Below, one piece after another: positions 7,609 to 49,950 of a stretch of DNA of 58,218 nucleotides. The DNA comes from Rhodovulum strictum. Lineage in GTDB: Bacteria; Pseudomonadota; Alphaproteobacteria; Rhodobacterales; Rhodobacteraceae. The stretch is from the NCBI RefSeq assembly GCF_009649175.1, contig NZ_WJPO01000026.1, positions 1-58,218 on the forward strand, in the 5' to 3' direction. Below the pieces are notes generated by a model that saw only the letters and a program-made list of their open reading frames with translations, did no database searches and was not told where the DNA came from. Every line of letters begins with the position of its first letter. Positions within the stretch are counted from its first letter, which is position 1. Position numbers and translations under genes: made by a program.

Positions 7609-7699
7609 GGCCTCCAGGACATTGATTTCTTTGTATTAACAACTCTGGCTCCATCCCAAATCAATGATGAGCAGTTCGCCGCCCCGTGCGGCTGCGGAC

Positions 7700-7943
7700 T
7701 CACGGTTGGGACTGCTGCTGTTGCGATTTCGCGATGTGCCAACGTTGGGCCGCGATCATGGTTCGGTTGACCGCGACTTGATCTTCCTGCTTCCTCAACG
7801 CCCGCCGCGCGCCTCGAGGGCGGTCGGGTCGTCGGAGGAAATCCGGAAAGTGAGTGCTGTGGGCGCAATCTGGGCCATTGCTGGGGTCCTGCTGTACGTC
7901 ATGCAAATGATGTCGGTGTTCACAACCGGATCAGGCGATCAAC
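7700..7943 (+). pseudogene. Decayed paralogue of the membrane protein gene at 18,483
   Basis: The frame shows SRLGLLLLRFRDVPTLGRDH, which aligns with SRLGGLLARFRDVPALGQDH of the intact gene, followed by a matching Pro/Arg linker and a C-terminal hydrophobic helix (AIWAIAGVLLYVMQMM). The first 60 or so codons of the intact version are missing and the stop codon is lost, so the frame reads on into the next decayed gene. The order of the two genes is the same as at 18.5-19.3 kb. Confidence 0.8.
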
Positions 7944-8011
7944 GGCCGGCGCCCCGGCGGCCAGCCCCCGGCAAGGGCCCGGCGAGAGCAGAGCTGACGC
8001 TGGCCGCGGGC

Positions 8012-8366
8012 GATGAAGCATCCCTGTGTCATCTGGAGGAACGGTTCTGGACCGAGGGCGCAGAGGGTGCGCGCCGGATGACCGCAAGGGATGTGGTCAA
8101 AGGATGCGGTCTTTGTCTTTCCGTTCCCCGCCGGCATACTGCAGGGTGATGCGCTCTGGAGAGAAACGGACGTCGCCCAACGGTGGCGCTCCGTCGTGAT
8201 GAGCGAGCGCTACGTGTCGATACACGGAAATGTTGCCATTCTGGTCTATCGCGTGTCCGCCGAACGCAGCGGCGATCCGATCTGCGAGGCGCTCTGCACG
8301 TCGATCTATCTGAAGGATGAGGGCCAGTCGCTGCGCCTGACGCATCAGCAGACAATCTTGGGCTGA
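8012..8366 (+). pseudogene. Decayed paralogue of the NTF2-like gene at 18,940 (frameshifted)
   Basis: Residues CHLEERFWTEGAEGARRMTA match the N-terminus of the intact copy (RLEEAFWTSGRDSARATTAA). The match then jumps to another frame at about 8,096-8,104 and continues FPFPAGILQGDALW through to LRLTHQQTILG-stop. A small indel explains this. The 3' part is otherwise well conserved, so decay is probably recent, or selection on the C-terminal piece persists. Confidence 0.8.
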
Positions 8367-8396
8367 GGCCCATTGCGCTCACGCTACCGGCTGGTG

Positions 8397-9014
8397 TCAG
8401 GCCAGTGTCTGCACCCAGCCGACGGCGTCGGCCATGACCGACTGCATGGCGGCGTCGATGCCGGCGATCAGCGCGACCGTGCTGTCGGATATCACCGACG
8501 TTGTGGACTCGAAGCGTCGCGTTCCGGCGATTTCGCGGCCGGCCTCGCGGATCACGGTCATCTGCAGCGCGACATGGATCTGGGCCGAGGCAAGGTCCGG
8601 GCCGGTCAGCTCGGCCTGGAACGCCTGGATCTCGCACATCAGCGTGTAGTCGGGCATGAGCCCCGCGCCCACCCGGCTGACCAGCCGGAATCCGCCGCGG
8701 TTCAGCAGCGAGTTGACCAGCAGCGTCTGCACCATGGCCGGGGTCGGTTCCGACCAGCGCGCGTCGGGCAGGTACTCCGCCTGCAGCGGAGAGATCTTGA
8801 TCAGGACGCGGTCGGTGGAGAGCTCGCCCCCGGATGTCGGCATCTCGACGACCAGATGGCGCGTGCCGCCGGGCCGCGGCTGCACCGGGCCGAGCGGCGA
8901 GAGCGTGTAGGTGTCGAGCGGATCGCTGGCCCTGGAGACCGCGGACACGGCGCTGCAGCCGGAGAGGCCCGCCATGGCCGAGAACGACAAAAGGGAGCGG
9001 CGCGAAAGGGTCAT
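8397..9014 (-). CDS. ABC-type transport auxiliary lipoprotein of the Mce/Mla system
   Basis: This 205-aa lipoprotein starts with a twin-arginine-like signal (MTLSRRSLLSFSAMAGLSGC) and lipobox LSGC. The body (DTYTLSPLGP, LIKISPLQAEYLPDARWSEP, TPAMVQTLLVNSLLN) is typical of the PqiC/Mla-associated auxiliary lipoproteins that sit in the outer or inner membrane and help move lipids between membranes. It is the last gene of the operon and its ATG overlaps the stop of the MCE gene by four bases. The start is set by that overlap. Confidence 0.9.
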   Translation of the reverse strand: MTLSRRSLLSFSAMAGLSGCSAVSAVSRASDPLDTYTLSPLGPVQPRPGGTRHLVVEMPTSGGELSTDRVLIKISPLQAEYLPDARWSEPTPAMVQTLLVNSLLNRGGFRLVSRVGAGLMPDYTLMCEIQAFQAELTGPDLASAQIHVALQMTVIREAGREIAGTRRFESTTSVISDSTVALIAGIDAAMQSVMADAVGWVQTLA

Positions 9015-9913
9015 TGGGACCTCCTGTAATCCGGTGTCTCGTTGCCCAGAAGAAACCGGCCGGGATCGCTGCCGATCTGGCGGGCGAGGGCGTCGAACCG
9101 CGCGATCACCCCGCTTGCATCCGCGATGAGGGCGCTGATCTGCGTCGAGAGCCGCGGCAGATCGTTCTGAGTGGCGCGGCGCAAGCCGTCCATCGCCGCA
9201 CCCGTGCTGTCGGCGGCGGATCGCAGATCGGCGACCAGCGCAGGCATGTCGCGCTGCAGCAGGCCATCGGTGGCCGCCAGCCCTGACTCGGCTGCAACGA
9301 GGGCCGCGTCGAACCGGGACAGGCTCTCCTCCGCGCGGGTGGCGAGGGCATCGATGCGCCCGGTGGCGTCCTGAATGTTGACGAGGATGCCCGCGACCGC
9401 ATCGCGGTTCTCGGCGGCGGTGAAGCCCCGCACCTCGGTTATCAGGGCCTTCGCCTCGGCAAGAAGTTCGGGCCCGGTCACCATCAGGTCCTGCACCACC
9501 GACTTCTCCGAGCGGATCACCGACACCTCGGCGGGAGGCACCGGCTCGAGAGGTTCGGCATCGGCGCTGCCACCTTCCAGCGCGATGAAGGCCACGCCCG
9601 TCACCCCCTGCGAGGCCAGCGTCGCGACCGTGTCGGTCCGCACCGGCGTGCTGGCGAAGATCTCGATGCGCACGCGCACCAGCGATGGGTCGTCGCGGTC
9701 CAGCGCGATGGTCAGGACCTTGCCCACATCCACGCCGTTGTAGCGCACGGCGGCGGTCTGGCTCAGCCCCGCGACGGTGCCGAAGAGGATGTCGTATTGC
9801 GCATAGGTCCGGTCGAGCTGGACCTTGGCCAGCCACAGCACGAAGCCGAGTGCGGCCAGAAATCCGACGATCGTGAAGAGGCCGATCAGGACGAAGCGTG
9901 CGCGGGTTTCCAT
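9011..9913 (-). CDS. mlaD: MCE-domain (MlaD-like) substrate-binding protein
   Basis: This 300-aa protein has an N-terminal membrane anchor (ARFVLIGLFTIVGFLAALGF), an MCE domain at about 38-118 (YDILFGTVAGLSQTAAVRYN, GVDVGKVLTI) and a long helical C-terminal part (150-290) expected to form a periplasmic barrel or needle. By family it carries phospholipids between inner and outer membrane with the ABC core encoded just upstream. Start and stop overlap both neighbours (TGATG and ATGA), showing tight coupling. Confidence 0.92.
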   Translation of the reverse strand: METRARFVLIGLFTIVGFLAALGFVLWLAKVQLDRTYAQYDILFGTVAGLSQTAAVRYNGVDVGKVLTIALDRDDPSLVRVRIEIFASTPVRTDTVATLASQGVTGVAFIALEGGSADAEPLEPVPPAEVSVIRSEKSVVQDLMVTGPELLAEAKALITEVRGFTAAENRDAVAGILVNIQDATGRIDALATRAEESLSRFDAALVAAESGLAATDGLLQRDMPALVADLRSAADSTGAAMDGLRRATQNDLPRLSTQISALIADASGVIARFDALARQIGSDPGRFLLGNETPDYRRSQ

Positions 9914-10689
9914 CAGACCGCCTCCTGCCCGAGGGCCGCATGGGCGCGCGGTCCGTGGAAATAGGACTGCACCCAGGGGTCGTCGACTTCCCGCATCTCG
10001 GCCATCGTGCCGGTCACCAGCACCCGGCGCTGGGCCAGAACCGCGATCCGGTCGCAGGTGGCCTGCAAGGTGTCGAGATCATGGGTCACCAGGAACACCG
10101 TCAGGCCCAGGGCCTCGCCCAGCGAATTCAGCAGCGCATCGAAGGCCGAGGCGCCGATCGGATCGAGGCCCGCCGTGGGCTCGTCCAGAAACAGGATCTC
10201 CGGGTCCAGCGACAGGGCGCGGGCCAGGCCCGCGCGCTTGCGCATGCCCCCCGACAGCTCGGCCGGGTAGAGGTCGCCGGCCTCGGGCGGTAGGCCGACC
10301 ATGGAAATCCGCAGATCGGCCAGTGCCGCGCGGGTGGGGGCGTCCACCGCCAGGCGCTCGCGCATCGGGGCCTCGACATTCTCGCGCACGGTCAGCGCCG
10401 AGAAGAGCGCGCCGTCCTGGAACATCACGCCGGTGCGCGCGCTCGCGGCCGCCCGGTCGGCCGCGCTGGCGCCCAGCACGTCCGTGCCCAGCATGGTGAT
10501 CTGCCCGGCGCTGGGGGTCTGCAGCCCCACGATGCTGCGCAGGAGCACCGACTTGCCGCTGCCCGAGGCGCCGACCACGCCCAGCACCTCGCCCCGCATC
10601 ACGTCGAGCGACAGATCCTCGTGCACCACCGTGGTGCCGAACCGGTTGGTCAGCCCGCGGATCTCGATGACGGCCTCGGCGTCCATCAC
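9913..10689 (-). CDS. mlaF: MlaF-like ABC transporter ATPase
   Basis: This 258-aa ATPase shows Walker A GASGSGKSVL (about 40-49), the signature LSGGMRKRAGLARAL (near 145), Walker B EILFLDEPTAGLDP and the switch histidine in VTHDLDT. It powers the MlaE permease. Its ATG overlaps the permease stop by four bases. Nothing is missing. Confidence 0.94.
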   Translation of the reverse strand: MMDAEAVIEIRGLTNRFGTTVVHEDLSLDVMRGEVLGVVGASGSGKSVLLRSIVGLQTPSAGQITMLGTDVLGASAADRAAASARTGVMFQDGALFSALTVRENVEAPMRERLAVDAPTRAALADLRISMVGLPPEAGDLYPAELSGGMRKRAGLARALSLDPEILFLDEPTAGLDPIGASAFDALLNSLGEALGLTVFLVTHDLDTLQATCDRIAVLAQRRVLVTGTMAEMREVDDPWVQSYFHGPRAHAALGQEAV

Positions 10690-11762
10690 ACCCCCCAGAA
10701 CGCGAAGAAGACGGAGAAGAGCGCGTCCACCACGATCACCAGGAAGATGGCGATGACCACCGCGCGCGAGGTCCGCATGCCCAGCGATTCCGCGTCGCCC
10801 TTGACCAGGAAGCCCTGATGGCAGCCCACCAGCGCGATGATCACGGCAAAGACCGGCGCCTTCGACAGACCGACCAGCGCTTGGGTCGCGCCGACATTCG
10901 CCAAAAGCTGGGTCTGGAACTGGCTGGGCGAGATGCCGAGCTCGATCCAGGCCATCAGCCCGCCGCCGAACAGCCCGGCAAGATCGGCCACAAGCCCCAG
11001 CACCGGTAGCAGGATCACCAGCGCCAGCAGGCGCGGCAGCACCAGAAGCTCGATCGGATCGAGACCCAGCACGCGCATCGCGTCGATCTCCTCGCGCATC
11101 TTCATCGAACCGATGGCGGCGGTGAATGCCGAGGCTGACCGCCCCGCGACGATGATGGCGGTCAGCAGGATGCCCAGCTCGCGCAGTATCGACACCGCGA
11201 TGAGGTCCACCACGAAGACCTCCGCCCCGAACTGTCGCAGCTGCGCGGCGCCCTGGAACGCCAGCACGACGCCGATGAGAAACCCCATCAGCGCCACGAT
11301 CGGCACGGCGTTCAGCCCAACCTCCTGCATGTGATGCACGAGTGCGGTCAGCCGCAGGCGGCGCGGACGCACCAGCGTCGTCGTCAGCCGGGCCATGACC
11401 AATCCGGTGAAGCCGAGGCCCTGCGCGCTGGTCGTCAGGAAACCCTCGACGGTTGTGCCGACGGCTGCCAGCGCATCGCCCGCCCGGTGTCGCGCCTTGC
11501 GCGGTCGAGCCGTGCGCGCGGGCGGCAATGCGGCCTCGACCGTACGCAACAGCAGGTCCTGTGCGGGACTCGCGGCCTCGATGTGCATCCCCCGATGGTC
11601 AAGCAGCGCCCAAGCTCCGGCGGTGTCGAGTGCCGTCACCGAGGAGAGATCGACCCGGGTCGTAGATTCGGCCCGGTCGAGCAGGGCGCGCACTTGGTCG
11701 AGCGTGTCTAGCGTCACCGGCCCGGTGAGGGCCAGGCCCGAGGACGGCACAGCGTCAGCCAT
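10686..11762 (-). CDS. mlaE: MlaE-family permease with N-terminal STAS-like domain
   Basis: This 358-aa protein has an N-terminal STAS-like segment (RVDLSSVTALDTAGAWALLD, about 35-60). The MlaE permease domain follows (about 120-358), with hydrophobic segments VGLNAVPIVALMGFLIGVVL and the conserved GRSASAFTAAIGSMKMREEI loop that contacts the ATPase. STAS-permease fusions are common in alphaproteobacterial Mla systems. I place the start at the ATG; a TTG codon directly in front is an alternative. It overlaps the 3' end of the small upstream gene if that gene's frameshift is repaired. Confidence 0.93.
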   Translation of the reverse strand: MADAVPSSGLALTGPVTLDTLDQVRALLDRAESTTRVDLSSVTALDTAGAWALLDHRGMHIEAASPAQDLLLRTVEAALPPARTARPRKARHRAGDALAAVGTTVEGFLTTSAQGLGFTGLVMARLTTTLVRPRRLRLTALVHHMQEVGLNAVPIVALMGFLIGVVLAFQGAAQLRQFGAEVFVVDLIAVSILRELGILLTAIIVAGRSASAFTAAIGSMKMREEIDAMRVLGLDPIELLVLPRLLALVILLPVLGLVADLAGLFGGGLMAWIELGISPSQFQTQLLANVGATQALVGLSKAPVFAVIIALVGCHQGFLVKGDAESLGMRTSRAVVIAIFLVIVVDALFSVFFAFWGV

Positions 11763-11950
11763 CAATGCCCATCCAGCCGATCCCGCCGAGCAGGCCGAAG
11801 CCGCGCAGCAGCCAGAGAACGACCACGATCACGACGACTACGTTCAGGATCGACTTTATTTTTTTGATCCATGGGGACATAGGTGTTGATGGCCCAGAGG
11901 GCGACGCCGACGACGACCAGCGTCACGACCAGGTTGATGAGTGACATCAT
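11755..11950 (-). pseudogene. Small Thivi_2564-type membrane protein, frameshifted at an A7 run
   Basis: The start MSLINLVVTLVVVGVALWAI is followed by NTYVPMDQK, as in the Thivi_2564 family. A run of seven A residues (complement of 11,859-11,865) then shifts the frame. With six A the protein would read on IKSILNVVVVIVVVLWLLRG, FGLLGGIGWMGIDG-stop, a perfect two-helix family member of 64-65 aa. As written, the frame continues as 62 aa of unrelated charged sequence. This may be a real frameshift, a sequencing error, or a slippage site that yields both products. It is the first gene of the Mla operon. Confidence 0.8.
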
Positions 11951-12096: not shown

Positions 12097-12110
12097 CTCA
12101 CATGGATCAG
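12097..12110 (-). promoter_or_regulatory. CTGAT-type 14-bp element upstream of the Mla operon
   Basis: On the minus strand it reads CTGATCCATGTGAG and matches 10-11 positions of the consensus CTGAT-SCAK-GTTNG seen elsewhere in the island. It lies about 150 bp ahead of the first gene of the operon. I infer a Crp/Fnr-type operator. Confidence 0.5.
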
Positions 12111-12164: not shown

Positions 12165-13028
12165 GCTCCAGACTCATTGATCATCAAAGCCAGAACATCA
12201 CGGTGGCGGCGAGAGCGATGGCTGAGAGGAAGACCTTTGGGCACCTGTCGTAGCGAGTTGCTATGCGGCGCCAGTCCTTCAATCTGCCGAACATGATCTC
12301 GATCCGGTTGCGCCGCTTGTATCGGCGTTTGTCGTAGCTGATCGCCTTGCCGCGCGACTTCCGGCCCGGGATGCAGGGGCGTATCCCCTTGTCTTTCAAC
12401 GCTTCCCGGAACCAGTCGGCATCGTAGCCGCGGTCGGCGAGCAGCCATTCTGCGGCGGGCAGGCTGCTCAGCAGGGCGGCGGCGCCGGAATAATCGCTGA
12501 CCTGGCCCGCAGTCATGAAGAAGCGAATGGGGCGGCCTTTTGCATCCGTCACGGCGTGCAACTTGGTGTTCAAGCCGCCCTTTGTCCGGCCGATCAGACG
12601 CCCGCGCTTGTCGTCGGGCCCCCTTTTTTGACCCGCAGGCTTGAAGCCGTGCGATGCGCCTTGAGATACGTCGCGTCGATCATGACGACCTTCTCCTCGC
12701 CGCCCTTGGAGGCCAAGCCCTCCATCATCCGGGCAAAGACCCCCATCTCACCCCACCGCTTCCATCGGTTGTAAAGGGTCTTTGGGGGGCCATACTCTCG
12801 CGGCGCGTCGCACCATCGCAAGCCGTTGCGATTGATGAAGATTATTCCGCTCAGCACACGCCGGTCATCCAACGCGCGGCTTGCCGTGGCTCTTCGGAAA
12901 GAACGGCCGCAACCGCTCCATCTGTTCGTCGGTCAGCCAGAAAAGATTGCTCATCCACACCCCCCGTCAGTGCGGGAGCTTGAATCACGCAGACCGGACA
13001 GCCTCAAGCCGGTTAATGGGTCCTGACC
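12165..13028 (-). mobile_element. IS5-family element (IS427-like) with CTAG target duplication
   Basis: It is flanked by CTAG on both sides (12,161-12,164 and 13,029-13,032), the target preferred by IS427-type elements. Imperfect terminal inverted repeats begin GCTCCAGACTCATTGA at the left and GGTCAGGACCCATTAA at the right (complement), matching at 11 of 16. Length is 864 bp. The transposase reads leftward in two frames and carries an extra disabling frameshift, so this copy is probably inactive without help in trans. Confidence 0.85.
12184..12954 (-). pseudogene. IS5-family transposase, two-frame with an additional N-terminal frameshift
   Basis: The frame starts MSNLFWLTDEQMERLRPFFP and KSHGKPRV, then an extra base near 12,870 shifts it. 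VDDRRVLSGIIFINRNGLRW continues in the next frame through MIDATYLKAHRTASSL. A second shift at AAAAAAGGGGG (complement of about 12,625-12,636) joins the last part (GGLNTKLHAVTDAKGRPIRF, ADRGYDADWFREAL, RRNRIEIMFGRLKDW). The second shift is the normal -1 programmed frameshift of this group. The first is a lesion. DDE residues are present in the pieces. Confidence 0.85.
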
Positions 13029-14651: not shown

Positions 14652-15488
14652 TCAATTGCCACCCTCCGGCGGCAGGTCTTCCGGTGCGACCTCGTCGCTC
14701 CAGACCCGGAAGTCGGTCATCTCGTGTAGCCCGAAGGTCTGGGTCAGCGGTACATCGGCGGCATCGCGGCCGCGGGCCACGAGGATCCGGCCGATGCGCG
14801 GGGTGTGGTTGCGCGGGTCGAAGACCCACCAGCGGCCCTCGAGATAGACCTCCATCCAGGCGGAGAAATCGCCGGGGGCGTAGGGCGGCGGCTCGCCGAT
14901 ATCGCCGAGATAGCCGGTGCAGTAGCGGGCGGGGATGTTCAGGCAGCGGCACAGCGCGATCGCCAGATGCGTGAAGTCGCGGCACACGCCATGACCCTCG
15001 GTCAGCGCCTGACTGGCGGTGCGCGTGGCCCGGGCGTGTTCGTAGCCGAAGGTCAGATGCGCATGGACGAAATCGCACACGGCCTGCACGCGCGCCCAGC
15101 CCGCTTCGCCCTGACCGAAGCGGCGCCAGGCCTCTTCGGACAGCAGGTCGGTGTCGCAATAGCGGCTGCCCAGAAGGTAGACGAGCGTCTCGTCGGGCAG
15201 GTCCTGCACCGCGTGCTGCCGGGCGGCAGGCGCCACCGGGTCGGGCTGTCCGTCGTCACGGAACACGCCGTCGGTGGACAGCACGAACGCGCCCGCCGGG
15301 GCCACCATGCGCGTGCACCAGTTGCCGAACCCGTCGCGATAGCCCTGGAACGGCACGCGCGGCGAGGCGACAAGGTCGTCGGCGCGCACCACATCGCCAT
15401 ACCGGCTGTGGTGGACGCTGAGCATGGCGATCAGCGGCGTCGGCTGGGGCAGGCTGAACTGCAGACGACACCCCACCCGGATCAGCAT
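14652..15488 (-). CDS. Transglutaminase-like family protein
   Basis: This 278-aa protein starts MLIRVGCRLQFSLPQPTPLI, typical of the family; a GTG fifteen bases upstream is a weaker choice. The triad is EGHGVCRDFTHLAIALCRCL (Cys), FSAWMEVYLEGRWWVFDPRN (His and Asp). It differs in N-terminus from its neighbour at 13,377, and such unlike pairs recur in proteobacteria near alpha-E and circularly permuted ATP-grasp genes, which are absent here. Its role is probably peptide-bond cleavage or cross-linking in the cytoplasm. Confidence 0.9.
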   Translation of the reverse strand: MLIRVGCRLQFSLPQPTPLIAMLSVHHSRYGDVVRADDLVASPRVPFQGYRDGFGNWCTRMVAPAGAFVLSTDGVFRDDGQPDPVAPAARQHAVQDLPDETLVYLLGSRYCDTDLLSEEAWRRFGQGEAGWARVQAVCDFVHAHLTFGYEHARATRTASQALTEGHGVCRDFTHLAIALCRCLNIPARYCTGYLGDIGEPPPYAPGDFSAWMEVYLEGRWWVFDPRNHTPRIGRILVARGRDAADVPLTQTFGLHEMTDFRVWSDEVAPEDLPPEGGN

Positions 15489-18193: not shown

Positions 18194-18287
18194 GGGTGTT
18201 CCTTCCTAGCTCCGGGCCCGATTGCGGGCATCGCTCCGGTGCAGCGCCGGATTGGAACGACCCTACGACGCCGGCAGGGGACCGGGA

Positions 18288-18301
18288 CTGATCGATGTTA
18301 G
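18288..18301 (+). promoter_or_regulatory. CTGAT-type element (divergent promoter region, site 1)
   Basis: It reads CTGATCGATGTTAG, matching the island consensus CTGAT-SCAK-GTTNG at nearly all positions. It lies in the 289-bp region between divergent genes starting at 18,193 and 18,483. Confidence 0.6.
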
Positions 18302-18345: not shown

Positions 18346-18359
18346 CTGATCTGCATCAG
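18346..18359. promoter_or_regulatory. Perfect palindromic CTGAT-N4-ATCAG site
   Basis: The sequence CTGAT-CTGC-ATCAG is a perfect inverted repeat with Fnr-type geometry (five-base arms, four-base spacer). It shows that the recurring CTGAT elements are probably half-degenerate versions of a dimer site. It lies 124 bp upstream of the gene at 18,483. Confidence 0.65.
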
Positions 18360-18482
18360 CGCAGGCGAGACGATTCAGGTCCATGTTGATCTTCATGCGC
18401 TGCGCGCGGCTTGCCCGTCGGCGCGAGCGGAGGGCGGCGAAGTTCAGGCTTCCGGTCCGCCCTGCCGGGAAAGGACCACACC

Positions 18483-18917
18483 ATGCCGACAATGGACGAG
18501 ATGCGTCAGGGCGGAACCCCGTTCGACCCGTTCCTCTACGCCGCCGTCGGCGAGGATCGGAACGGCAACACGGTGACTGTCCTGTCCACTCTGGCCCGGC
18601 TGGGGCTGGAGCCCTGGGATGCGGCGTCCGATCTGGCCAGCCTGACAAGGGACGAAGCCCGCAGCCGCCTGGGCGGGCTGCTGGCCCGGTTCCGGGATGT
18701 GCCGGCGCTTGGGCAGGATCATGCCGCGATCACGCAGCGGCTGATCGATCTGTTGCCGAGAACCGCCGGTCGCCGGGTCGGCCGGACAACGGAGCGGACG
18801 GCAGAGCGGACGGCGCCCGCCGGCGCCGGGGGCATCGGCACGATCCTCGCCGTGCTGATGCTGATCCTCTACCTCATCAACATGCTGTTCCTCGGCTCGG
18901 ATGGCGCCGGAAACTGA
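18483..18917 (+). CDS. Hypothetical membrane protein (intact member of duplicated pair)
   Basis: This 144-aa protein starts MPTMDEMRQGGTPFDPFLYA. A cytoplasmic helical part (TVLSTLARLGLEPWDAASDL, ARSRLGGLLARFRDVPALGQ) precedes an Arg/Thr linker and one C-terminal helix (GTILAVLMLILYLINMLFLG). It is predicted to be tail-anchored. The stop overlaps the upstream part of the NTF2-like gene, implying coupling. The same two genes occur decayed at 7.7-8.4 kb. I recognise no named domain. Confidence 0.8.
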   Translation: MPTMDEMRQGGTPFDPFLYAAVGEDRNGNTVTVLSTLARLGLEPWDAASDLASLTRDEARSRLGGLLARFRDVPALGQDHAAITQRLIDLLPRTAGRRVGRTTERTAERTAPAGAGGIGTILAVLMLILYLINMLFLGSDGAGN

Positions 18918-20102: not shown

Positions 20103-20116
20103 CTTACCTCGATCAG
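20103..20116 (-). promoter_or_regulatory. CTGAT-type element upstream of the DUF3185 gene
   Basis: The minus strand reads CTGATCGAGGTAAG. It matches the consensus except at one right-arm base. It is 131 bp ahead of the DUF3185 start codon. Confidence 0.5.
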
Positions 20117-20220: not shown

Positions 20221-20234
20221 CAAACCTGGATCAG
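20221..20234 (-). promoter_or_regulatory. CTGAT-type element between DUF3185 and OmpA genes
   Basis: The minus strand reads CTGATCCAGGTTTG, a full consensus match. It lies between the divergent DUF3185 gene and the OmpA-family gene (start 20,398) and could serve either. Confidence 0.6.
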
Positions 20235-22049: not shown

Positions 22050-22063
22050 CTGATCCAGGTTGT
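22050..22063 (+). promoter_or_regulatory. CTGAT-type element upstream of the 24-aa peptide gene
   Basis: It reads CTGATCCAGGTTGT, matching the consensus except the last base. It is 75 bp ahead of the start codon at 22,138. Confidence 0.6.
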
Positions 22064-24309: not shown

Positions 24310-24323
24310 CTGATGCAGGTTAG
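24310..24323 (+). promoter_or_regulatory. CTGAT-type element upstream of csbD
   Basis: It reads CTGATGCAGGTTAG, a full consensus match, 105 bp ahead of the csbD start codon. Confidence 0.6.
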
Positions 24324-24879: not shown

Positions 24880-25035
24880 ATGCTCGGAACCATTCTCATC
24901 GTCATTCTCGTCCTGATGCTCGTGGGCGTGCTGCCCACCTGGGGCCATAGCCGCTCGTGGGGCTATGCGCCCAGCGGAACCATCGGCCTGATCCTCGTGA
25001 TCCTGATCGTGCTGGTGCTGACCGGCCGCCTGTGA
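24880..25035 (+). CDS. DUF3309 family small membrane protein
   Basis: This 51-aa protein MLGTILIVILVLMLVGVLPT, then WGHSRSWGYAPSGTIGLILV and ILIVLVLTGRL, exactly fits DUF3309: two helices flanking the conserved TWGHSRSWGY loop. AAAGGA lies eight bases before the ATG. The function is unknown; members occur next to stress genes in Alphaproteobacteria. Confidence 0.92.
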   Translation: MLGTILIVILVLMLVGVLPTWGHSRSWGYAPSGTIGLILVILIVLVLTGRL

Positions 25036-25124: not shown

Positions 25125-25358
25125 CTAGCGCCGACGCACCGAGTTGCCGCCTGCGAGGATGTTGTTGATCAGCGCGGCCACGGCGGCGTGCAGCGCATCC
25201 TTTTCGCCTGGCGGTGCGAACTCGTGCGCAGCGGCGGCATCCTTCAGGACGCCGACGATCTCCCTCTCGGGCAGGATGTTGCGGTCGTTGAGCGCGAGCA
25301 GGAGCGACTCGCAGATGGCGAGCGCGGCGGTTCCGGCGATGTCGTTGGGAACGGTCAT
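25125..25358 (-). CDS. Hypothetical protein of stress regulon (77 aa)
   Basis: The protein MTVPNDIAGTAALAICESLL, then LALNDRNILPEREIVGVLKD and AAAAHEFAPPGEKDALHAAV, is helical with a conserved CESLLLALNDR motif. I have seen similar short proteins in Rhodobacterales but no named domain. Its promoter is the exact EcfG-type element 57 bp upstream, so it is a probable general stress gene. It is cytoplasmic. Confidence 0.75.
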   Translation of the reverse strand: MTVPNDIAGTAALAICESLLLALNDRNILPEREIVGVLKDAAAAHEFAPPGEKDALHAAVAALINNILAGGNSVRRR

Positions 25359-25412: not shown

Positions 25413-25439
25413 GGAACGTTCCGGCAGCATAGGCGTTCC
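25413..25439. promoter_or_regulatory. Bidirectional EcfG-type promoter (GGAAC-N16-CGTT on both strands)
   Basis: On the plus strand GGAAC (25,413-25,417) and CGTT (25,434-25,437) are 16 bp apart; on the minus strand GGAAC (25,439-25,435) and CGTT (25,418-25,415) are also 16 bp apart. This matches the published EcfG/sigma-EcfG consensus GGAAC-N16/17-CGTT exactly, twice. It sits between the divergent 77-aa gene and the Crp/Fnr gene. The EcfG sigma gene is at 44.9 kb. Confidence 0.85.
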
Positions 25440-25452: not shown

Positions 25453-25466
25453 CTGATCGAGAGCAG
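25453..25466 (+). promoter_or_regulatory. CTGAT-type element upstream of the Crp/Fnr gene
   Basis: It reads CTGATCGAGAGCAG. The left arm and spacer match the consensus; the right arm is degenerate. It is 72 bp before the regulator's own start codon, which could mean autoregulation. Confidence 0.4.
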
Positions 25467-25538: not shown

Positions 25539-26270
25539 ATGCTGATGCTGCAAAGCCCGCTGACACGAAAGCTTTCGGCCTATGTGGCCTTGTCGGCCGC
25601 CGATCTGGAGCCTCTGGCGCGCCTGCACAGGCGCAGGCGGAGCTTTCAGCCGGGGCACGAGCTGATCCACGAGGGTCAGGCCAATGCCTCGGCCTTCATT
25701 CTGTCCGATGGCTGGGCCTGTTCCTACAAGCTTCTGCCGGATGGCGAGCGGCAGATCGTCGACTTCCAGATCCCGGGCGACTTCCTCGGCCTGCGCAGCA
25801 TCCTGTTCCGCACCTCCGACCACTCCATCGAGGCCGTGACCCGAATCGAGGCGACCGAGGTGCTGGCCCCGGACATCCTCGAAGCCTTCGCCGAGGCGCC
25901 GCGGCTGGCCACCGCCGTGCTCTGGGCCGCATCGCGGGACGAGGCGATGGTCGTGGAGCATCTGGTCAATCTCGGTCGCCGCTCGGCCGAGGAGCGCATG
26001 GCGCATTTCCTGCTGGAACTGGGCGCTCGGCTGGCGCTGGTGGGGTCGGGCGACCGGACGGGATTCGATTGCCCGCTGACGCAATATCACCTCGCCGACG
26101 CGCTGGGGCTGAGCGCGGTGCATGTCAACCGTGTCCTGCGCCACCTGCGCGAGGAGGGCCTCGTCACCTTCCGGAACGGGCGCGTGGCCTTCGACGATTT
26201 CGACAGGCTCAAGGCGGTCGCCGGGTTCGACTCCGGCTATCTCGATCAGGACGGCCCTCTGCTGCGCTGA
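25539..26270 (+). CDS. Crp/Fnr family transcriptional regulator
   Basis: This 243-aa protein has a cyclic-nucleotide-type sensor domain (FQPGHELIHEGQANASAFIL, DGERQIVDFQIPGDFLGLRS; about 30-120), a dimer helix and a C-terminal winged HTH (LTQYHLADALGLSAVHVNRV, LRHLREEGLV; 170-225). It lacks an N-terminal cysteine cluster, so it is not an oxygen-sensing Fnr. The recognition helix has VHVNRVL rather than the E..SR of Fnr, so site preference should differ. It is preceded by an EcfG promoter and a CTGAT-type element. I infer that it binds the CTGAT-N4 elements in this island. Confidence 0.92.
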   Translation: MLMLQSPLTRKLSAYVALSAADLEPLARLHRRRRSFQPGHELIHEGQANASAFILSDGWACSYKLLPDGERQIVDFQIPGDFLGLRSILFRTSDHSIEAVTRIEATEVLAPDILEAFAEAPRLATAVLWAASRDEAMVVEHLVNLGRRSAEERMAHFLLELGARLALVGSGDRTGFDCPLTQYHLADALGLSAVHVNRVLRHLREEGLVTFRNGRVAFDDFDRLKAVAGFDSGYLDQDGPLLR

Positions 26271-26678: not shown

Positions 26679-26692
26679 CTGATGCAGGTTGG
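26679..26692 (+). promoter_or_regulatory. CTGAT-type element upstream of the 64-aa gene
   Basis: It reads CTGATGCAGGTTGG, a full consensus match. The gene it most likely serves is the leftward 64-aa gene at 26,512, 167 bp away; its palindromic origin means orientation is not decisive. Confidence 0.6.
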
Positions 26693-27532: not shown

Positions 27533-27546
27533 CTGATCTGAATTAG
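27533..27546 (+). promoter_or_regulatory. Degenerate CTGAT-type element upstream of the OmpA lipoprotein gene
   Basis: It reads CTGATCTGAATTAG. Left arm matches; right arm ATTAG is close to ATCAG. Given its place 95 bp upstream of the start, it may be a weak site. Confidence 0.35.
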
Positions 27547-36580: not shown

Positions 36581-36594
36581 CTGATGCATGTTGG
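36581..36594 (+). promoter_or_regulatory. CTGAT-type element between two EcfG promoters
   Basis: It reads CTGATGCATGTTGG, a full consensus match. It lies between the leftward ndvB promoter and the rightward PRC-barrel promoter, about 120 bp from each, so one regulator could act on both. Confidence 0.6.
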
Positions 36595-36716: not shown

Positions 36717-36741
36717 GGAACGCGCCCTGCTACCGCGCGTT
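36717..36741 (+). promoter_or_regulatory. EcfG-type promoter of the PRC-barrel gene (GGAAC-N16-CGTT)
   Basis: GGAAC (36,717-36,721) and CGTT (36,738-36,741) are 16 bp apart. The gene starts 65 bp downstream. It is an exact match to the EcfG consensus. Confidence 0.8.
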
Positions 36742-42700: not shown

Positions 42701-44071
42701 CCGCAGCGAGAAGGCGCACAGTCCGATCACCCGCCGCTGCGCCTGCGGCTCCAGGTAGATCAGCACGTTGCGGCAGGACAGAAGGTCGATGCGCGAGAAC
42801 GGCGGGTCGGACAGCAGGTCCGCCACGGTGAAGACGATCACGTCACGCAGTTCCGGCCGGACCCGCCAGCCACCCGCCTCAGCGTCGAAGAACCGCGCAA
42901 GCCGGGCGGACGAGACCGCGCCTGCGATGTCGGCGGGATAGAACCCCTCGCGGGCGGTCCCCACCGCGTCGGCGTCGATGTCCGAGGCGAAGACCTGCAG
43001 CCCGGCCCGCGACCCTGCCGCCTCCAGCGCCTCGATGCAGAGCATGGCCAGGCTGTAGGCCTCCTCGCCGGTGCTGCATCCGGCCACCCAGACCCGCAGC
43101 GGCCGGTCGGCGGGCTGGGATGCGATCAGTTCGGGCAGGGCTGTCGCGCCGAGGTGCTCGAACACGCCCGGATCGCGGAAGAAGCTCGTGACATGGATCA
43201 GCAGATCGGCCGTCAGCCGCGCAAGCTCGGTGCTGTCGGCGCGCAGCATCGTCAGATACCGCTCCGTCTCGTCCGGCCCACAGCCAGCCATCGCCATGCG
43301 ACGGGCGATGCGGCGCTTGATCGTTCCAGTCTTGTACAGCGTCACATCCTGAGGGGCCGTTTCCGCGACGAGCGAGATGATGGCGTCGAAATCCCGGCCC
43401 GCCAGCGTCGCGCCTGTCCGGCCTGCGCCGGCCTTCGCTTCCAGCGCGGTGTCCGGGCGTTCGGGCGGTTTCGGCAGACCCCCTGCTGTGAGCTGCCCCA
43501 GCACCGCCGGCATGTCCGCAATGCCCAGGACGTGATCCACCAGACCGGTCGCCATGGCGCTGTCCGGCATGCCGGAATACCCGGCCTCCTTCGGGTCCTG
43601 CGCCAGGATCAGCCCGCCTGCGTCATGGATGGCGCGGAGGCCGCCGCTGCCGTCCGTGCCGGTCCCCGACAGCACGATGCAGGCCAGCGGCGATGATGCC
43701 TCCCGTGCCAGAGACTGCAACAGAACATCGAAGGGCAGGCGCACCGCCTTGCCGCGCTCCGGGGCAGATGTATGGAGAACACCGTTCTCGACGGTCAGAA
43801 AGACGCCCGGCGGGATGACATAAAGATGGGCAGGCCGCAGCGTCATGCCCTCGCCGGCCAGAAGCACCGTCAAGGCGGTATCCCGCGCCAGAAGGTCGAC
43901 CATCATGCTGTCATGTGTGGGGTCGAGGTGCAGGACCAGCACGAAGGCCGCCTGCATGTCGCCGGGTATCGCCTGCAACAGTGCCCGGCACGCCTCGAGC
44001 CCGCCTGCGGATGCGCCGACGGCAACGATGGGGAGCGCAGGACCTAGCGTTCGAGCGTTCGCATTGGACAT
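39755..44071 (-). CDS. CheB-CheR-PAS-histidine kinase-REC-REC-LuxR hybrid
   Basis: This 1,438-aa protein joins, in order: a CheB methylesterase-like domain (about 10-190; SAGGLEACRALLQAIPGDM, SGTGTDGSGGLRAIHDAGG) and a CheR methyltransferase (about 215-490; TSFFRDPGVFEHL, GCSTGEEAYSLAM). A coiled coil (640-720, NEEFQSTNEELLASKEELQA) and PAS (~725-835) follow, then HisKA with SHDLRQPLQSL (His near 872) and HATPase (DSGIGVAPSEQKA). REC-1 (LLLTDFDLHGG, Asp near 1,153), REC-2 (CLVIDDRLPGMSG, Asp near 1,287) and a LuxR HTH (LTPREREVMARVLEGAPNKI, 1,375-1,438) end it. It is a whole phosphorelay, methylation module and DNA-binding output in one chain. Its signal is unknown. Confidence 0.9.
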   Translation of the reverse strand: MSNANARTLGPALPIVAVGASAGGLEACRALLQAIPGDMQAAFVLVLHLDPTHDSMMVDLLARDTALTVLLAGEGMTLRPAHLYVIPPGVFLTVENGVLHTSAPERGKAVRLPFDVLLQSLAREASSPLACIVLSGTGTDGSGGLRAIHDAGGLILAQDPKEAGYSGMPDSAMATGLVDHVLGIADMPAVLGQLTAGGLPKPPERPDTALEAKAGAGRTGATLAGRDFDAIISLVAETAPQDVTLYKTGTIKRRIARRMAMAGCGPDETERYLTMLRADSTELARLTADLLIHVTSFFRDPGVFEHLGATALPELIASQPADRPLRVWVAGCSTGEEAYSLAMLCIEALEAAGSRAGLQVFASDIDADAVGTAREGFYPADIAGAVSSARLARFFDAEAGGWRVRPELRDVIVFTVADLLSDPPFSRIDLLSCRNVLIYLEPQAQRRVIGLCAFSLRQGGLLLLGAAETPGPADGSFEVAHKDARLWRRVGPSRLGDLHLAAGARIARPVETYPQPSRRTSLAELCRRVVLDNYAPAAVLLNRRFESLYLLGPTERYLSVTQGHPDPGFLGMLPRTLHARFRAAAASCDAANPVVVVPGGRSAREGRFNIELRAVQAGKEDLLLACFLDAPPAATGSPADGDGAADAASRIAELEADLEATRNDRSDALRELEQEVEGHAADAAEALSVNEEFQSTNEELLASKEELQALNEELTALNAQLQETVERHRTTANDLQNVLYSTDVATIFLDRDLNIRFFTPNARAVFHVIPTDIGRPLSDLAALSSDADLAPDAAAVLATARPVEREIAGAGGIWYLRRVQPYRADGGRVEGVVITFVDITENKRTHAELVAARREADRATAAKSRFLAAASHDLRQPLQSLALLHELMTRGSRSAETQRLAALMDRTLKTMTEMLDALLDLNRIEAGIVRPQVRAVAVAPLMANLAEEFAPLCELKGLKLRVVPTRAWVRTDPQLLRQMLRNLLSNAVKYTPRGGILMGCRIRGDRLTIQVSDSGIGVAPSEQKAIFDAYHQGEQPGFLAAQGLGLGLSIVQRLADLLAHPVDVRSVQGKGSTFTVTLPLAAAEPAALADAAPVEGDRQTGTILLVEDEDDLRQLLARALIAEGHSVVAMANAPDALAWATRSAVPPDLLLTDFDLHGGASGLSLARELPRVLGHGVPTIILTGDITAETMREIAGTPFVQLVKPVLPDALLARIAAMLQGARAARAQHGTGSTPEQVTVHVVDDDPMVREATRRLFEAEGWAVVTYPSAEAFLAAPRPAARACLVIDDRLPGMSGVALLEALRAERSSLPAVMLTGDGDTAMAVSAMKAGAADLIEKPASAADLLVSIGRALEQATDDRARHNARRMALKSFADLTPREREVMARVLEGAPNKIIAADLGINQRTVENHRAAVMRKTGATSLPDLVRLAMAAGLPGV

Positions 44072-45942: not shown

Positions 45943-46620
45943 CTACCCCGTCACGACCCCATCGCCCACCACGACCTGTCGCCGGCAGAGGCTTGCGATC
46001 TTCTCGTCGTGGGTGGAGATGAGAAAGGTCGTGCCTTCGTCGCGGTTGATCTCGGAGATCAGCGCCATGACCTGCATGGCGGCGGCGCGGTCGAGGTTGC
46101 CGGTCGGCTCGTCCGCCAGCACCAGTTCCGGCCGGTTCATCAGCGCGCGGGCCACTGCCACGCGCTGCTTCTGACCGCCCGACAGGTTTGCCGTGGGGAA
46201 ATCGATCCGTTCGGCCAACCCCATCCGTGCCAGCAACTCGCGCCCGCGGGTCCGGGCGGCAGCCGTCTCGCGGCCCTCTCGCACGGCGGTGGGGAAGGCC
46301 ACGTTCTCAAGCGCGGTGAAGTCGGGCAGCAGGTTGTGGAACTGGAACACGAAGCCGATGTGCAGGTTGCGAAACAGTGTCAGCGCCCTGTCGTCGGCTG
46401 CGACCAGATCCGTCCCGAGCATCGAGTGGCTGCCCGCGGTGGGTTTCATCAGCGTTCCGAGGATGGTCAGCAGCGTGCTCTTGCCCGACCCTGACGGGCC
46501 CAGCAGCGCCGTGAGTTCTCCCCCCTGCAGCGTCAGGGACAGCCCGCGCAGGACCCGCGTCGCCGCCTCGCCCGACCCGAAGGTCTTGACCAGCCCTTCG
46601 ACCTCGACCAGCGCGCTCAC
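45943..46620 (-). CDS. MacB/LolD-type ABC transporter ATPase
   Basis: This 225-aa ATPase has Walker A GPSGSGKSTLL (about 39-49), signature LSGGQKQRVAVARAL and Walker B ELVLADEPTGNLD, followed by ISTHDEK. These match the MacB/LolD subfamily. It starts with GTG (GTGAGC), overlapping the FtsX-permease stop by four bases. With the permease and the adaptor upstream it forms a MacAB-like exporter split into separate ATPase and permease. Confidence 0.92.
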   Translation of the reverse strand: MSALVEVEGLVKTFGSGEAATRVLRGLSLTLQGGELTALLGPSGSGKSTLLTILGTLMKPTAGSHSMLGTDLVAADDRALTLFRNLHIGFVFQFHNLLPDFTALENVAFPTAVREGRETAAARTRGRELLARMGLAERIDFPTANLSGGQKQRVAVARALMNRPELVLADEPTGNLDRAAAMQVMALISEINRDEGTTFLISTHDEKIASLCRRQVVVGDGVVTG

Positions 46621-47822
46621 TGGCTGATCGCCGTGACCGGATCGACCCGTGCCGCGGCGCGTGCGGGGAGGATCGAGGCAAGGATCGCACCCAGCACCGT
46701 CAGCGTAATCGCCAGCCCGTAGGAGCCCTGGGTGATGTCCATCGGCAGGGTGCCCGGCCTGAACGCATCACGCGTGGGAAAGGGCAGCAGGGCCAGGTAG
46801 CCGAGCGCGGCACCAGATAGCCCCCCCAGCAGCCCGACCAGCGCGCCCTGGGTCACGAAGACGAAGACGACAAAGCTGCGCCCGGCACCCATTGCACGCA
46901 TGATCCCGATCTCCGGCCTTCGGCGGTAGGTGGACAAAAGCAGCGCCGAGGCGACGCCGATCACGATGGTGATCAGTGCGAAGGATTTGAGGAAGTATCC
47001 GGTCTGCGCCTGCGCATTCAGCGCCTCCATCAGCTGCTCGGCGCCGTCGGTCCATGGTACGGCATCGAGTCCGGTCAGCGCCCGGATGCGCAGCGCCGTG
47101 GCATCAGCGGCGTTCAGGTCCGCCAGCTTGATCTCGATCCGCGTCACCCCCTGCGGCAAGGCGAAGAGCGTGCGCGCCGTGGGCAGGCTGACGAAGATAC
47201 TGCTGCGGTCCATCATGCCGTTGCCGGTCCTGTAGATGCCGCTCAGCGTCAGCACCGTCGAAACGCCGCCCGAGGATTGCAGGCGCAGCGTCTGACCCAG
47301 CCGGAGCGACAGGTCATCCGCCAGCGTCTGCCCCAGCACGATCAGCCCCGAACCCAGCCGCGCCGTACCTTCGACCATGTAGCCGTCCAGATCCAAGATC
47401 GCGGATTCGCGCCCCGGCTCAAGACCCGTCACGCCGACCTGCGCCACCTGCGCCCCGCGTGTCAGGAACCCCGCGCCGGTTATCTGCGGCGAAACGGCGG
47501 TCACGCCCGGCACCGTCTCGATCAACGGCACCCAAGTCGCGGCGTCGGCCAGCGTGGCGGTGCGGGCGCGGCCCTGTTCGACAACGGCGAGGACATGGCC
47601 ATCGGGCGAGATCAGGATCGGCGGGTCGGCGTCCTCGGCCTTGATCGTGACATGGCTGATGTCGCCCACGGTGCGGGACAGGATGAATTCGGCTAGACCC
47701 CCGATCAGCGCCGACATGAAGATGAAGATGAACACGCCCACCGCGACACCCAGCACCAGAAGCGCTGTCTGTGCCTTGCTTGCGGTCAGATAGCGGAGGG
47801 CGATCTTGAGGCCGTAGAGCAT
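46617..47822 (-). CDS. FtsX-like permease of a MacB-type exporter
   Basis: This 401-aa protein has an N-terminal helix (AQTALLVLGVAVGVFIFIFM), a periplasmic domain (about 45-265) and three C-terminal helices (ALITIVIGVASALLLSTYRR, FVTQGALVGLLGGLSGAALG, LAITLTVLGAILASILPARA). This is the FtsX/MacB_PCD fold. It would couple ATP hydrolysis to extrusion through an outer-membrane channel not seen here. It overlaps the adaptor gene by one base and the ATPase by four. Confidence 0.92.
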   Translation of the reverse strand: MLYGLKIALRYLTASKAQTALLVLGVAVGVFIFIFMSALIGGLAEFILSRTVGDISHVTIKAEDADPPILISPDGHVLAVVEQGRARTATLADAATWVPLIETVPGVTAVSPQITGAGFLTRGAQVAQVGVTGLEPGRESAILDLDGYMVEGTARLGSGLIVLGQTLADDLSLRLGQTLRLQSSGGVSTVLTLSGIYRTGNGMMDRSSIFVSLPTARTLFALPQGVTRIEIKLADLNAADATALRIRALTGLDAVPWTDGAEQLMEALNAQAQTGYFLKSFALITIVIGVASALLLSTYRRRPEIGIMRAMGAGRSFVVFVFVTQGALVGLLGGLSGAALGYLALLPFPTRDAFRPGTLPMDITQGSYGLAITLTVLGAILASILPARAAARVDPVTAISQ

Positions 47823-48985
47823 CAGGGTTGCTCCACGCGCACCGACTGTCCGTCGGCGATGCCGGTAGCATCCAAGATCAGCGCATCTCCCGGCACCAGC
47901 CCTTCGGTCACAATGAGCCGTGCGGCGGGCCAGTCGATGACCGTCACGGGCCGCAACCGGGCGATCCCGTCCGAAACGACAAGGACCGCCGGTCTGCCAT
48001 CCCCGGTCACAACCGCCGTCCGGGGCACGGTCAGCGCAGCGTCCCGCCGGTCGATGACGATGTTGGCCGTGACCGTCAGGCCGACCGGTGCCGTCACCGG
48101 CTCGTCGAACACAAGCTTCACCGCCAGACCGCCGGTCGCCGCATCCACCCGCTGCGACACATAGCTCACGCGGCCCTCGCGCTTGGCCGTCTCGCCAGTG
48201 AGTTGCAGGACAGCAGGCATGTCAGCCCGGAGCTGCGTGGCATAGGCCTCGTCCACATCCGTCTCGACGGTTAGCTGGCCCAGATCGGCAATCGTCATCA
48301 GCACGGTCGAGGGATCGATGGTCTGGCCCGGGTCGGCATTCAGGGCAAGAACCGTCCCGGTCATCGGTGCGCGAATGGTGAAGTTGCCAAGCTGGATCTG
48401 CGCCTGATCGACCAGAGCCGTCATACGCGCCGCCTCCTGCGCGGCCGACTGCACTGCGGTTTCCGCGTTTTCCAGTACGGTGCGGGCGACATTGGCCCCA
48501 AGCGCGCGCGTCCGTTCAAGGGTCGCCTGCGCCTGCGCCTGAGCGACCAGGGCGGCATCCAGTCCCGCCATCGCCTGCCGCAGGACGGCCTGCTGGGCAG
48601 TGGAGTCTATCCGCGCGACGATCCCGCCAGATTGCACGCTGTCGCCTTCGACGACCGACAGATCGGCCAGGGTGCCGCCCACCTGTGCCCGCACATCGAC
48701 CGAATGAAGGGCTTCGATCCTGCCGTTGACGGCCAGGATCCGTGTCACCGGCGCCAGAGTGACGGTTTCGACGGCAACAACGACCGGACTGCTTGCCCAC
48801 GGCTGCAGGAAAAAGCCGAGGCCCGCACCCCCTGCCAGAACAAGACCAACTATCCAGATACGCCGCAATCTGGGGGCGGGAGACGCAGGCGACGGACGCA
48901 CAGCCGGCAAACGGCGGTCGCTCGCCTCTGCCGGTGCGGCCTCTCTGGCAGGGTCAGACCACTTCTGTTGCACCGGTGTCGTCAT
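47822..48985 (-). CDS. HlyD/MacA-type periplasmic adaptor
   Basis: This 387-aa protein has a cytoplasmic N-terminus and one membrane helix (RRIWIVGLVLAGGAGLGFFL, about 40-60). Next come a lipoyl half-motif (ALHSVDVRAQVGGTLADLSV), an alpha-hairpin of about 60 residues (AALVAQAQAQATLERTRALG) and a beta-barrel domain (TIRAPMTGTVLALNADPGQT). The order of genes (adaptor, permease, ATPase) matches MacA-MacB-type systems. The substrate is unknown; similar exporters carry peptides, toxins or lipids. Confidence 0.92.
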   Translation of the reverse strand: MTTPVQQKWSDPAREAAPAEASDRRLPAVRPSPASPAPRLRRIWIVGLVLAGGAGLGFFLQPWASSPVVVAVETVTLAPVTRILAVNGRIEALHSVDVRAQVGGTLADLSVVEGDSVQSGGIVARIDSTAQQAVLRQAMAGLDAALVAQAQAQATLERTRALGANVARTVLENAETAVQSAAQEAARMTALVDQAQIQLGNFTIRAPMTGTVLALNADPGQTIDPSTVLMTIADLGQLTVETDVDEAYATQLRADMPAVLQLTGETAKREGRVSYVSQRVDAATGGLAVKLVFDEPVTAPVGLTVTANIVIDRRDAALTVPRTAVVTGDGRPAVLVVSDGIARLRPVTVIDWPAARLIVTEGLVPGDALILDATGIADGQSVRVEQP

Positions 48986-49072
48986 CTGGTCCTCCCGGCC
49001 CGCGAACGGTCCAGACGGACGGCGGACGGTCGATGTCGAACATGACGGTATCCTGCCGATCGCCTACAGACG

Positions 49073-49086
49073 CTGATCTGTGTCAA
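49073..49086 (+). promoter_or_regulatory. CTGAT-type element between exporter and cbpA
   Basis: It reads CTGATCTGTGTCAA, with a right arm GTCAA close to classic Fnr-type ATCAA. It lies in the 167-bp region between divergent genes starting at 48,985 and 49,153, so it could act on either. Confidence 0.5.
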
Positions 49087-49950
49087 CGACGGAAGGGGTG
49101 GTACTGAGAATGAATTGCAGGTGTTGTCATGCCGAGACGAGAAACCTGACCGATGTCGATTGATCCCTATGGCGTTCTTGGCCTGACCAAATCCGCCACA
49201 CCGGATGACATCAAGAAGGCGTACCGCAAGCTGGTGCGCACCAGCCATCCTGACCTGCACCCCGACGACGCCGGGGCGGAGGCGCGGTTCAAGGCCATCG
49301 CTGCCGCCCATGACCTGCTGAAGGATCCCGACACCCGTGCCCGTTTCGACGCGGGCGAGATCGATGGGGCGGGCGCTGAACGGCCGCAGCGCCAATACTA
49401 TCGCGATTTCGCAGAGGCCGGAGGAAATCCGTACCAGCAACGGCGCGGGTTTGAGAGCCACGTTGATCCGGCTGACATTTTTGCGGAAATCCTGCGCCAG
49501 CGAACACGACAGGGCAGCGATGATTTCAGCGGCCGCGGGTACTCCGCGCCCGGCCCTGATCTTCGATATGCGCTCGAAGTGCCCTTTCTGGACGCCGCGC
49601 GCGGGGGTGAGATGCGCATCACCCTGCCGGACGGCGCCAGCCTGGCGGTGCGGATCCCGCAAGGGGCACATGACGGTCAGACCCTGCGCCTTCGCGGCAA
49701 GGGTGGGCCGGGCTTTGGGGGTGGTGCTCCGGGTGACGCGCTTATCACGCTGTCGGTCAGCCAACATCCCGTCTTCCGTCGAATCGGCGATGACGTCTTC
49801 GTCACCCTGCCCATCACCATTGATGAGGCCATTCTTGGAGGGAAGGTCACGGCGCCGACTATCTCCGGACCTGTCAATCTGACGATCCCGAAAGGAGCGA
49901 GTTCCGGCCGGGTTCTGCGCCTGCGTGGACGCGGCGTGGCGCATCAAGGG

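Follow-up and report, generated by a model that had tools for sequence, protein, structure and literature searches.

A predicted, largely local Crp/Fnr regulon that shares mobile stress islands with its regulator in Rhodovulum strictum and its relatives

The stretch of DNA analysed here, hereafter the window, comprises positions 1 to 58,218 of contig NZ_WJPO01000026.1 of Rhodovulum strictum (assembly GCF_009649175.1; 58,218 nt). It carries a gene for a Crp/Fnr-type regulator (25539..26270, plus strand; 243 amino acids (aa), recognition helix LGLSAVHVNRVL) and, between genes, twelve copies of a 14-bp element which a first-pass annotation had read as the operators of a general stress regulon under this predicted cognate factor. 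Very likely, regulator and elements make up a new Crp/Fnr regulon that is largely local and travels with its regulator on mobile stress islands, binding and activation being predicted from the sequence. What was computed are the sites, their spacing, their position before genes, their linkage to the regulator clade and their difference from FnrL sites; binding of the regulator to the operators, and activation rather than repression, are what we infer. No description of the operator or of the clade was recognised in the literature, in which subscription journals were thinly covered.

All twelve elements were recovered where the first-pass annotation had placed them, and all are intergenic by our own script-made gene calls, given a regulator start at 25539. 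This is the start of the orthologues, and only with it is the element at 25453 intergenic, an over-long script call from 25188 covering it otherwise. Turned toward the gene they face, most elements read CTAAC-N4-ATCAG, which corrects the earlier reading; the gene-facing form is about C(T/C)(A/G)A(C/T)-N4-(A/G)TCAG and the consensus in promoter direction CTRAY-N4-RTCAG-N21/22-YANNNT, N21 or N22 giving the distance to a hexamer of the -10 type. The predicted operator CTAACATCGATCAG (18288..18301, minus strand; TAGGGT at N22, 18260-18265) faces a gene starting at 18193 on the minus strand, and CTGATCTGCATCAG (18346..18359, plus strand; CATGTT at N22, 18382-18387) faces a conserved island gene without a Pfam family (18483..18917, plus strand). 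The element at 18346 had been called a perfect palindrome, and its arms CTGAT/ATCAG are indeed perfectly inverted, but its 4-nt centre is not palindromic. Further along, CTGATCGAGGTAAG (20103..20116, minus strand; CATGAT at N21) faces a DUF3185 gene (19760-19972, minus strand); CAAACCTGGATCAG (20221..20234, plus strand), with TAGCGA at N22 toward an OmpA-type gene (20398-21987, plus strand), is the sole one of the twelve without [TC]ANNNT at 21/22; and CTGATCCAGGTTGT (22050..22063, plus strand; CACTGT at N22, 22086-22091) faces a 24-aa open reading frame at 22138 and a DUF883_C gene at 22318. The operator CTAACCTGCATCAG (24310..24323, without assigned strand) has TATCGT at N22 (24282-24287) toward an AI-2E transporter gene (22971-24206, minus strand) and, on its other side, GAGGAT at N22 toward a CsbD family gene recognised by Pfam search (24428-24601, plus strand). 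Upstream of the regulator gene, CTGATCGAGAGCAG (25453..25466, minus strand; TATGCT at N21, 25426-25431) faces the divergent gene for a conserved 77-aa orphan protein (25125..25358, minus strand; 96% to a relative). On the regulator's other side lie CCAACCTGCATCAG (26679..26692, minus strand; TAGGGT at N22, 26651-26656), facing a 64-aa gene (26318-26512, minus strand), and CTAATTCAGATCAG (27533..27546, minus strand; CATTGT at N22, 27505-27510), facing a glycine-zipper OmpA gene (26794-27438, minus strand). The operator CCAACATGCATCAG (36581..36594, minus strand; TATCCT at N22, 36553-36558) faces a gene at 36185-36379 and the giant gene at 27696-36188, both on the minus strand, the latter encoding a GH94/glucoamylase protein, which we take to be cyclic-glucan-synthase-like. 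Finally, TTGACACAGATCAG (49073..49086, minus strand; TACCGT at N22, 49045-49050) faces an HlyD/MacB/ABC export operon (45943-48985, minus strand), and the weakest of the twelve, the operator-like CTCACATGGATCAG (12097..12110, without assigned strand), lies before an Mla operon (8397-11765, minus strand), its sole [TC]ANNNT at 21/22, CAAGTT, being on the side away from that operon.

Exact matches to the pattern CTGATSSAKGTTNG number five in the window (18288, 20221 on the minus strand, 24310, 26679 and 36581), against a mean of 0.023 and a maximum of 1 in 300 simulated windows. Five of the six elements previously described as near-exact are thus exact, and that at 22050 has one mismatch; among those described as weaker relatives, 12097 and 20103 (both minus strand) likewise differ at one position, with 25453, 27533 and 49073 looser, beyond two mismatches. 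When up to two mismatches were allowed, 16 matches were found, some of them outside the twelve, against 7.85 +/- 2.12 in shuffled sequence, and none of 100 shuffles reached 16.

A hexamer [TC]ANNNT stands exactly 21 or 22 nt beyond the element, on either side, in 11 of the 12 cases (background 5.8%); counted per offset from 0 to 29 on both sides, such hexamers occur eight times at 22, three times at 21 and at most once elsewhere. Searched alone in the window, ATCAG-N22-[TC]ANNNT gave seven matches, and the upstream half was present in all seven. A 14-bp site 22 nt before a -10 hexamer has its centre at -41.5, where FNR-type activators bind at class II promoters, and sites 21-22 nt before a -10 hexamer were found in the window as well as in the held-out loci described below. 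That the elements behave as Crp/Fnr operators is supported by this arrangement, and the Crp/Fnr geometry of arms and spacer that had been proposed is borne out, the 4-nt spacer being singled out and the distance to the -10 being that of class II. Since such a site covers -48 to -35, the regulator might instead repress from over the -35 region; the exact class II distance and the low logo information at -30 to -15 are rather those of an activator working without a good -35, and repression is unlikely.

The geometry was then followed outside the window with a matrix built solely from the twelve elements, its centre masked and its spacer varied. It was applied to two held-out sets, whose loci are partly related to each other: 45 loci around orthologues of the regulator (906 kb, one of them the locus of a 45% relative) and 78 loci from named genomes, these being the best 80 of 527 candidates minus two duplicates. 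Altered spacers served as control, a reversed-pattern control being probably biased because TAG-containing words are rare. The first set yielded 223 matches at spacer 4 against 40-83 at ten other spacers; 125 of the 223 were intergenic and had a gene start no more than 350 bp downstream, as did 5-10 of the 40-83 at six altered spacers, and the -10 counts were 63 at offset 22, 13 at 21, 33 at 2 and 1-10 elsewhere. The second set gave 391 matches at spacer 4 (49-136 at other spacers), 259 of them upstream of starts (8-34 of 49-136), with 123 -10 hexamers at offset 22, 57 at 21 and at most 29 at any other. Whether the matrix matches scatter relative to gene starts had been set beforehand as the test of the proposal, and in the held-out loci they do not. 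A further [TC]ANNNT-type peak, 2 nt past the spacer-4 sites (33 and 29 counts), stands without explanation and might stem from relatedness among the sequences. To allow for the relatedness of the loci, matches were clustered by their flanks, whereupon 184 of 301 clusters had a -10, against 4-24% for spacers 2, 3, 5, 6 and 8. Behind such promoters stand 35 gene families, 18 of them in at least two loci (the window and a second contig of the same genome, C34, included). Many of these families are represented in the window, and the loci with an operator number 50 for the 77-aa orphan, 21 each for the glycine-zipper OmpA family and the family of the gene at 18483-18917, 13 for the 64-aa orphan, 11 for DUF3185, 8 for AI-2E, 4 for CsbD and 3 for an antiporter.

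In the genome of R. strictum as a whole, CTGATN4GTTNG has 16 matches, of which 5 fall in the contig of the window, 1.5% of the genome (P 3e-6). There is no genome-wide enrichment, the 16 at spacer 4 comparing with about 25 per spacer (323 over 13 spacers), and the operator signal is therefore local. The gene-facing form CTRAYN4RTCAG occurs at 28 places by hand count, of which the window accounts for 4 and C34 for 3 (P 1.2e-6), and none of the 13 examined among the 21 off-island places has [TC]ANNNT at 21/22. A genome-wide regulon was rejected as the main picture, the places concentrating in the window and C34 and those examined off the island lacking a -10. The pattern CTRAYNNNNRTYNG, with at least 342 matches, was dropped as too loose. 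The earlier designation 'general stress' comes from gene content only, and the regulon appears local to the island and C34.

Rhodobacter FnrL sites mostly fit TTGAY-N4-RTCAA, some with CTGAT arms, and include CTGATGCAGATCAA before nuoA (PMC4634722, PMC2908626). The R. strictum genome also has an FnrL-like paralogue (L088) with N-terminal cysteines and an ETVSR helix, and the operators could belong to FnrL or to another genomic Crp/Fnr protein, CrpK-like for instance, that tolerates an outer C. This is very unlikely in view of the outer base pair: among intergenic NTRAY-N4-RTYAN sequences in 122 loci, 266 of 338 have C..G there and 5 have T..A, and of those with a -10 at 21/22, 143 of 163 have C..G and 1 has T..A. 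The FnrL-type TTGAY-N4-RTCAA is absent from the window and has 6 matches in the 122 loci against 277 of CTRAY-N4-RTYAG. Likewise, 32 hand-picked genomes without an orthologue of the island regulator hold the strict promoter pattern at background level, with 13 matches against 16 at control spacing. The outer C:G pair sets the island operators apart from FnrL sites. FNR/FnrL and the island system share fold and family, a 14-bp inverted site with a 4-nt spacer, the 22 nt to the -10 and the arginine of the recognition helix; they differ in the outer bases (C..G, not T..A), in the N-terminal cysteine set, which the island regulator lacks, and in the targets, which on the island are stress and envelope genes near the regulator. 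CrpK of Rhodobacter sphaeroides is reported (PMC4344238) to be an Fe-S-free protein without N-terminal cluster cysteines that shares the FnrL targets nuo, cco and bch. Because of these shared targets CrpK sites are presumably of the FnrL type, unlike the C..G operators of the island; compared by description, the island regulator resembles CrpK in the missing cluster cysteines.

Membership of the regulator in the Crp/Fnr superfamily follows from Pfam matches to cNMP_binding (PF00027, 52.8 bits) and HTH_Crp_2 (PF13545, 63 bits), both above cut-off. Curated models of the known subgroups score far lower than their cut-offs: 71.2 against 300 bits for FnrL, 64.7 against 228 for Fnr, 68.1 against 300 for FixK and 23.8 against 266 for CRP. 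In a Foldseek search, the AlphaFold2 (AF2) model of the regulator (pLDDT 85) matched FNR best (E 3e-15, template modelling (TM) score only 0.43-0.50), and CRP and NtcA structures also at low E-values; with TM-scores of no more than about 0.4-0.5, the family fold is recognised and the domain arrangement is tentative. Alignment to FNR places AVHVNR opposite the helix VETISR, with the arginine kept and the glutamate and serine replaced by valine and asparagine, and no other HVNR helix was seen among the 20 readable of the 23 helix-turn-helix (HTH) matches examined in the same genome. Copies of at least 63% identity and near full length occur in 31 of 149 genomes of the family, own included, the 30 others being 63-84% identical, and a gap down to 45% follows; there are also a partial copy in G021 (73%) and a fragment in G031 (57%). 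Two Rhodobacter capsulatus strains carry the regulator at 82% identity, and 19 plasmid records at 62-78%, again with a gap to 45% thereafter. Two or three copies were seen in loci L054 and L084 and in genomes G101, G111, G024 and G051. Within the first 50 residues from the match start, 33 of 35 orthologues have no cysteine and 2 have one, which leaves no FNR cysteine set, and the cysteine of a CPL[ST]Q motif before the HTH domain is present in 35 of 35. The regulator would be an activator of a clade of its own, devoid of an FNR-type Fe-S cluster and presumably dimeric, and it possibly responds to stress or energy shortage via this invariant cysteine.

As to the link between the two, in 33 of 37 loci the regulator gene is preceded by an operator (score at least 10.9; CTGAT-N4-AGCAG or -ATCAG). 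In the 31 orthologue-bearing genomes the strict promoter pattern has 37 matches, of which 20 lie no farther than 20 kb from an orthologue, whereas the control spacing N19 has 14, with 2 near (near and far counted by hand); as the orthologue-free genomes are at background, the excess corresponds to the linked part. The island's own Crp/Fnr gene is thereby supported as the best candidate for the cognate factor.

Several observations weigh against such a regulon. No good site precedes the regulator in L056 (a poor one), in L060 and L073 (none) or in the distant relative L074. From the site upstream of the regulator a -10 lies toward the 77-aa gene in 50 loci and toward the regulator in only 9, so that the regulator may not act on its own gene or may repress it; class II activation there found little support. 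Nine loci of 36-45% identical relatives show no enrichment (14 matches at spacer 4, 6-18 at others), although seven of the nine carry the VHVNR helix. A single site shared by all HVNR relatives was rejected on this ground, and the helix does not by itself define the site. For csbD, a score of at least 12 was reached by 2 of 4 copies at most 20 kb from the regulator, which is only weakly favourable beside 3 of 26 farther copies in genomes with an orthologue and 1 of 22 in genomes without one (30 of 32 csbD matches fetched; both sides scanned, the strand being unfound for 21 of 30 and 11 of 22 genes). On six plasmids promoter-like sites number 9, 2 and 5 at 0-5, 5-10 and 10-15 kb from the regulator; with no steady fall in density, linkage holds at island scale and not gene by gene. 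The matrix, moreover, fixes C at its ends, a bias from which the outer-pair count was free. Linked sites could also serve another island factor: the case for the regulator is guilt by association, the loci were chosen by the regulator gene, and the window encodes a CheB-CheR-PAS-kinase-receiver protein with a LuxR HTH. Real operators bound by such another island protein are nevertheless highly improbable, since the sites show the symmetry, the spacing and the class II distance of Crp/Fnr, one of them precedes the regulator itself and no other evident transcription factor was noticed among 23 neighbour families, judged by eye without a family search.

In the local Crp/Fnr regulon that we favour, a dimer of the regulator would bind CTRAY-N4-RTCAG, with the centre of the site some 41.5 (or 40.5) bp ahead of the transcription start, adjoining RNA polymerase in the class II manner. 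It would switch on the genes of its own island, namely small envelope and stress genes, OmpA-type proteins and the GH94 giant protein, and, divergently, the gene of the 77-aa protein. Regulator and operators would travel together on plasmids and islands, and in R. strictum the operators would also mark contig C34, before a YfcC-like antiporter gene and in an ATP synthase region. Predicted targets could on this basis be named in dozens of genomes, the two R. capsulatus strains among them, several orphan small genes and recurrent plasmid cargo would gain a likely function, and a change in Crp/Fnr recognition at one outer base pair could be traced in evolution.

The EcfG/PhyR/NepR general stress response has similar small target genes; it relies on a sigma factor with a different promoter and not on a Crp/Fnr regulator, and EcfG-like motifs are present in the island. 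In the window, GGAAC-N15-18-CGTT occurs nine times, where shuffled sequence gives 1.5, and two of the nine overlap just ahead of the regulator; such sequences lie at 25413-25439, 36438-36463, 36717-36741 and 38317-38341, and the GGAAC-N16-CGTT at 25413..25437 (plus strand), about 100 bp before the regulator gene, is a lead only. They point to a possible connection to the general stress sigma factor. Of 115 regulator genes, 14 are preceded by the motif and 6 by a control of double width, and relatives have 22 intergenic cases at N16 against 0-8 at neighbouring spacings. The own genome has 211 matches against 408 for the reversed control. On these counts the case for EcfG control of the regulator itself is weak. 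A NepR model found no match in the own genome; the R. sphaeroides NepR candidate being only 25% identical to NepR, a divergent one could be missed. That the 14-bp element itself is part of an alternative sigma factor promoter, for example of the extracytoplasmic function (ECF) type, might be argued from its fixed distance to the -10, from the stress genes behind it and from these EcfG-like motifs. Yet a sigma element does not consist of inverted half sites kept strictly 4 nt apart. The upstream half starts 36 nt ahead of the -10, a distance too great for a -35 box, and the EcfG-like motif is a different sequence in other places; together these points make a sigma promoter extremely improbable.

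Turning to the remaining island genes, a DUF3309 gene recognised by Pfam search lies at 24880..25035 (plus strand), and the family of the 77-aa orphan, in which no Pfam or NCBIfam family was matched, is present in 29 of 36 relatives' loci, strongly conserved and divergent from the regulator. Regulator-bearing plasmids come from Paracoccus, Phaeobacter, Leisingera, Roseovarius, Ruegeria, Pseudohalocynthiibacter and Roseibium; as the Roseibium carrier belongs to another order, transfer of the module is indicated. In the 10 of 19 plasmid regions viewed for gene content, of which 6 plasmids are typed conjugative or mobilizable, the regulator is accompanied, in varying sets, by groEL or groESL, hflKC, nhaA, a fatty acid desaturase, transglutaminases and a GH94-type giant gene. 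The transmissible locus of stress tolerance of Gram-negatives is likewise a mobile set of chaperone, protease-related, antiporter and envelope genes; the island differs from it in its groEL/groESL, hflKC, nhaA, desaturase, transglutaminase and GH94 content and in having its own Crp/Fnr regulator. Transposase genes in the contig of the window are of the IS66 (255-1871), DDE_Tnp_1 (12184-12573) and IS110 (56847-57917) types.

Contig C34 (L075) has operators at 928-941 (TAACGT at N22), at 8207-8220, ahead of an ATP synthase gene and likewise with a hexamer at 21/22 on the facing side, and at 14704-14717 (TAGGCT at N22). The last faces a YfcC-like antiporter gene (287 bits, below the model cut-off of 500), which is followed by an ornithine carbamoyltransferase gene (518 against a cut-off of 515), and an S30AE-type gene lies at 1705. 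From sequence features we take these to be genes of an arginine deiminase pathway and an N-type ATP synthase, and the window and C34 may share one replicon. It is conceivable, if doubtful, that the whole is a transferable stress-survival module with its own circuit, in which a Crp/Fnr protein that senses redox or energy state and reads an operator code of its own would provide Rhodobacterales with a second general stress response, spread horizontally, under EcfG at the regulator promoter and reaching genes of amino-acid fermentation and of an N-type ATP synthase in other parts of the genome.

The multidomain protein with the LuxR HTH mentioned above is encoded at 39755-44071 on the minus strand; it is 1438 aa long and combines CheB, CheR, PAS, histidine kinase and two receiver domains with that HTH.

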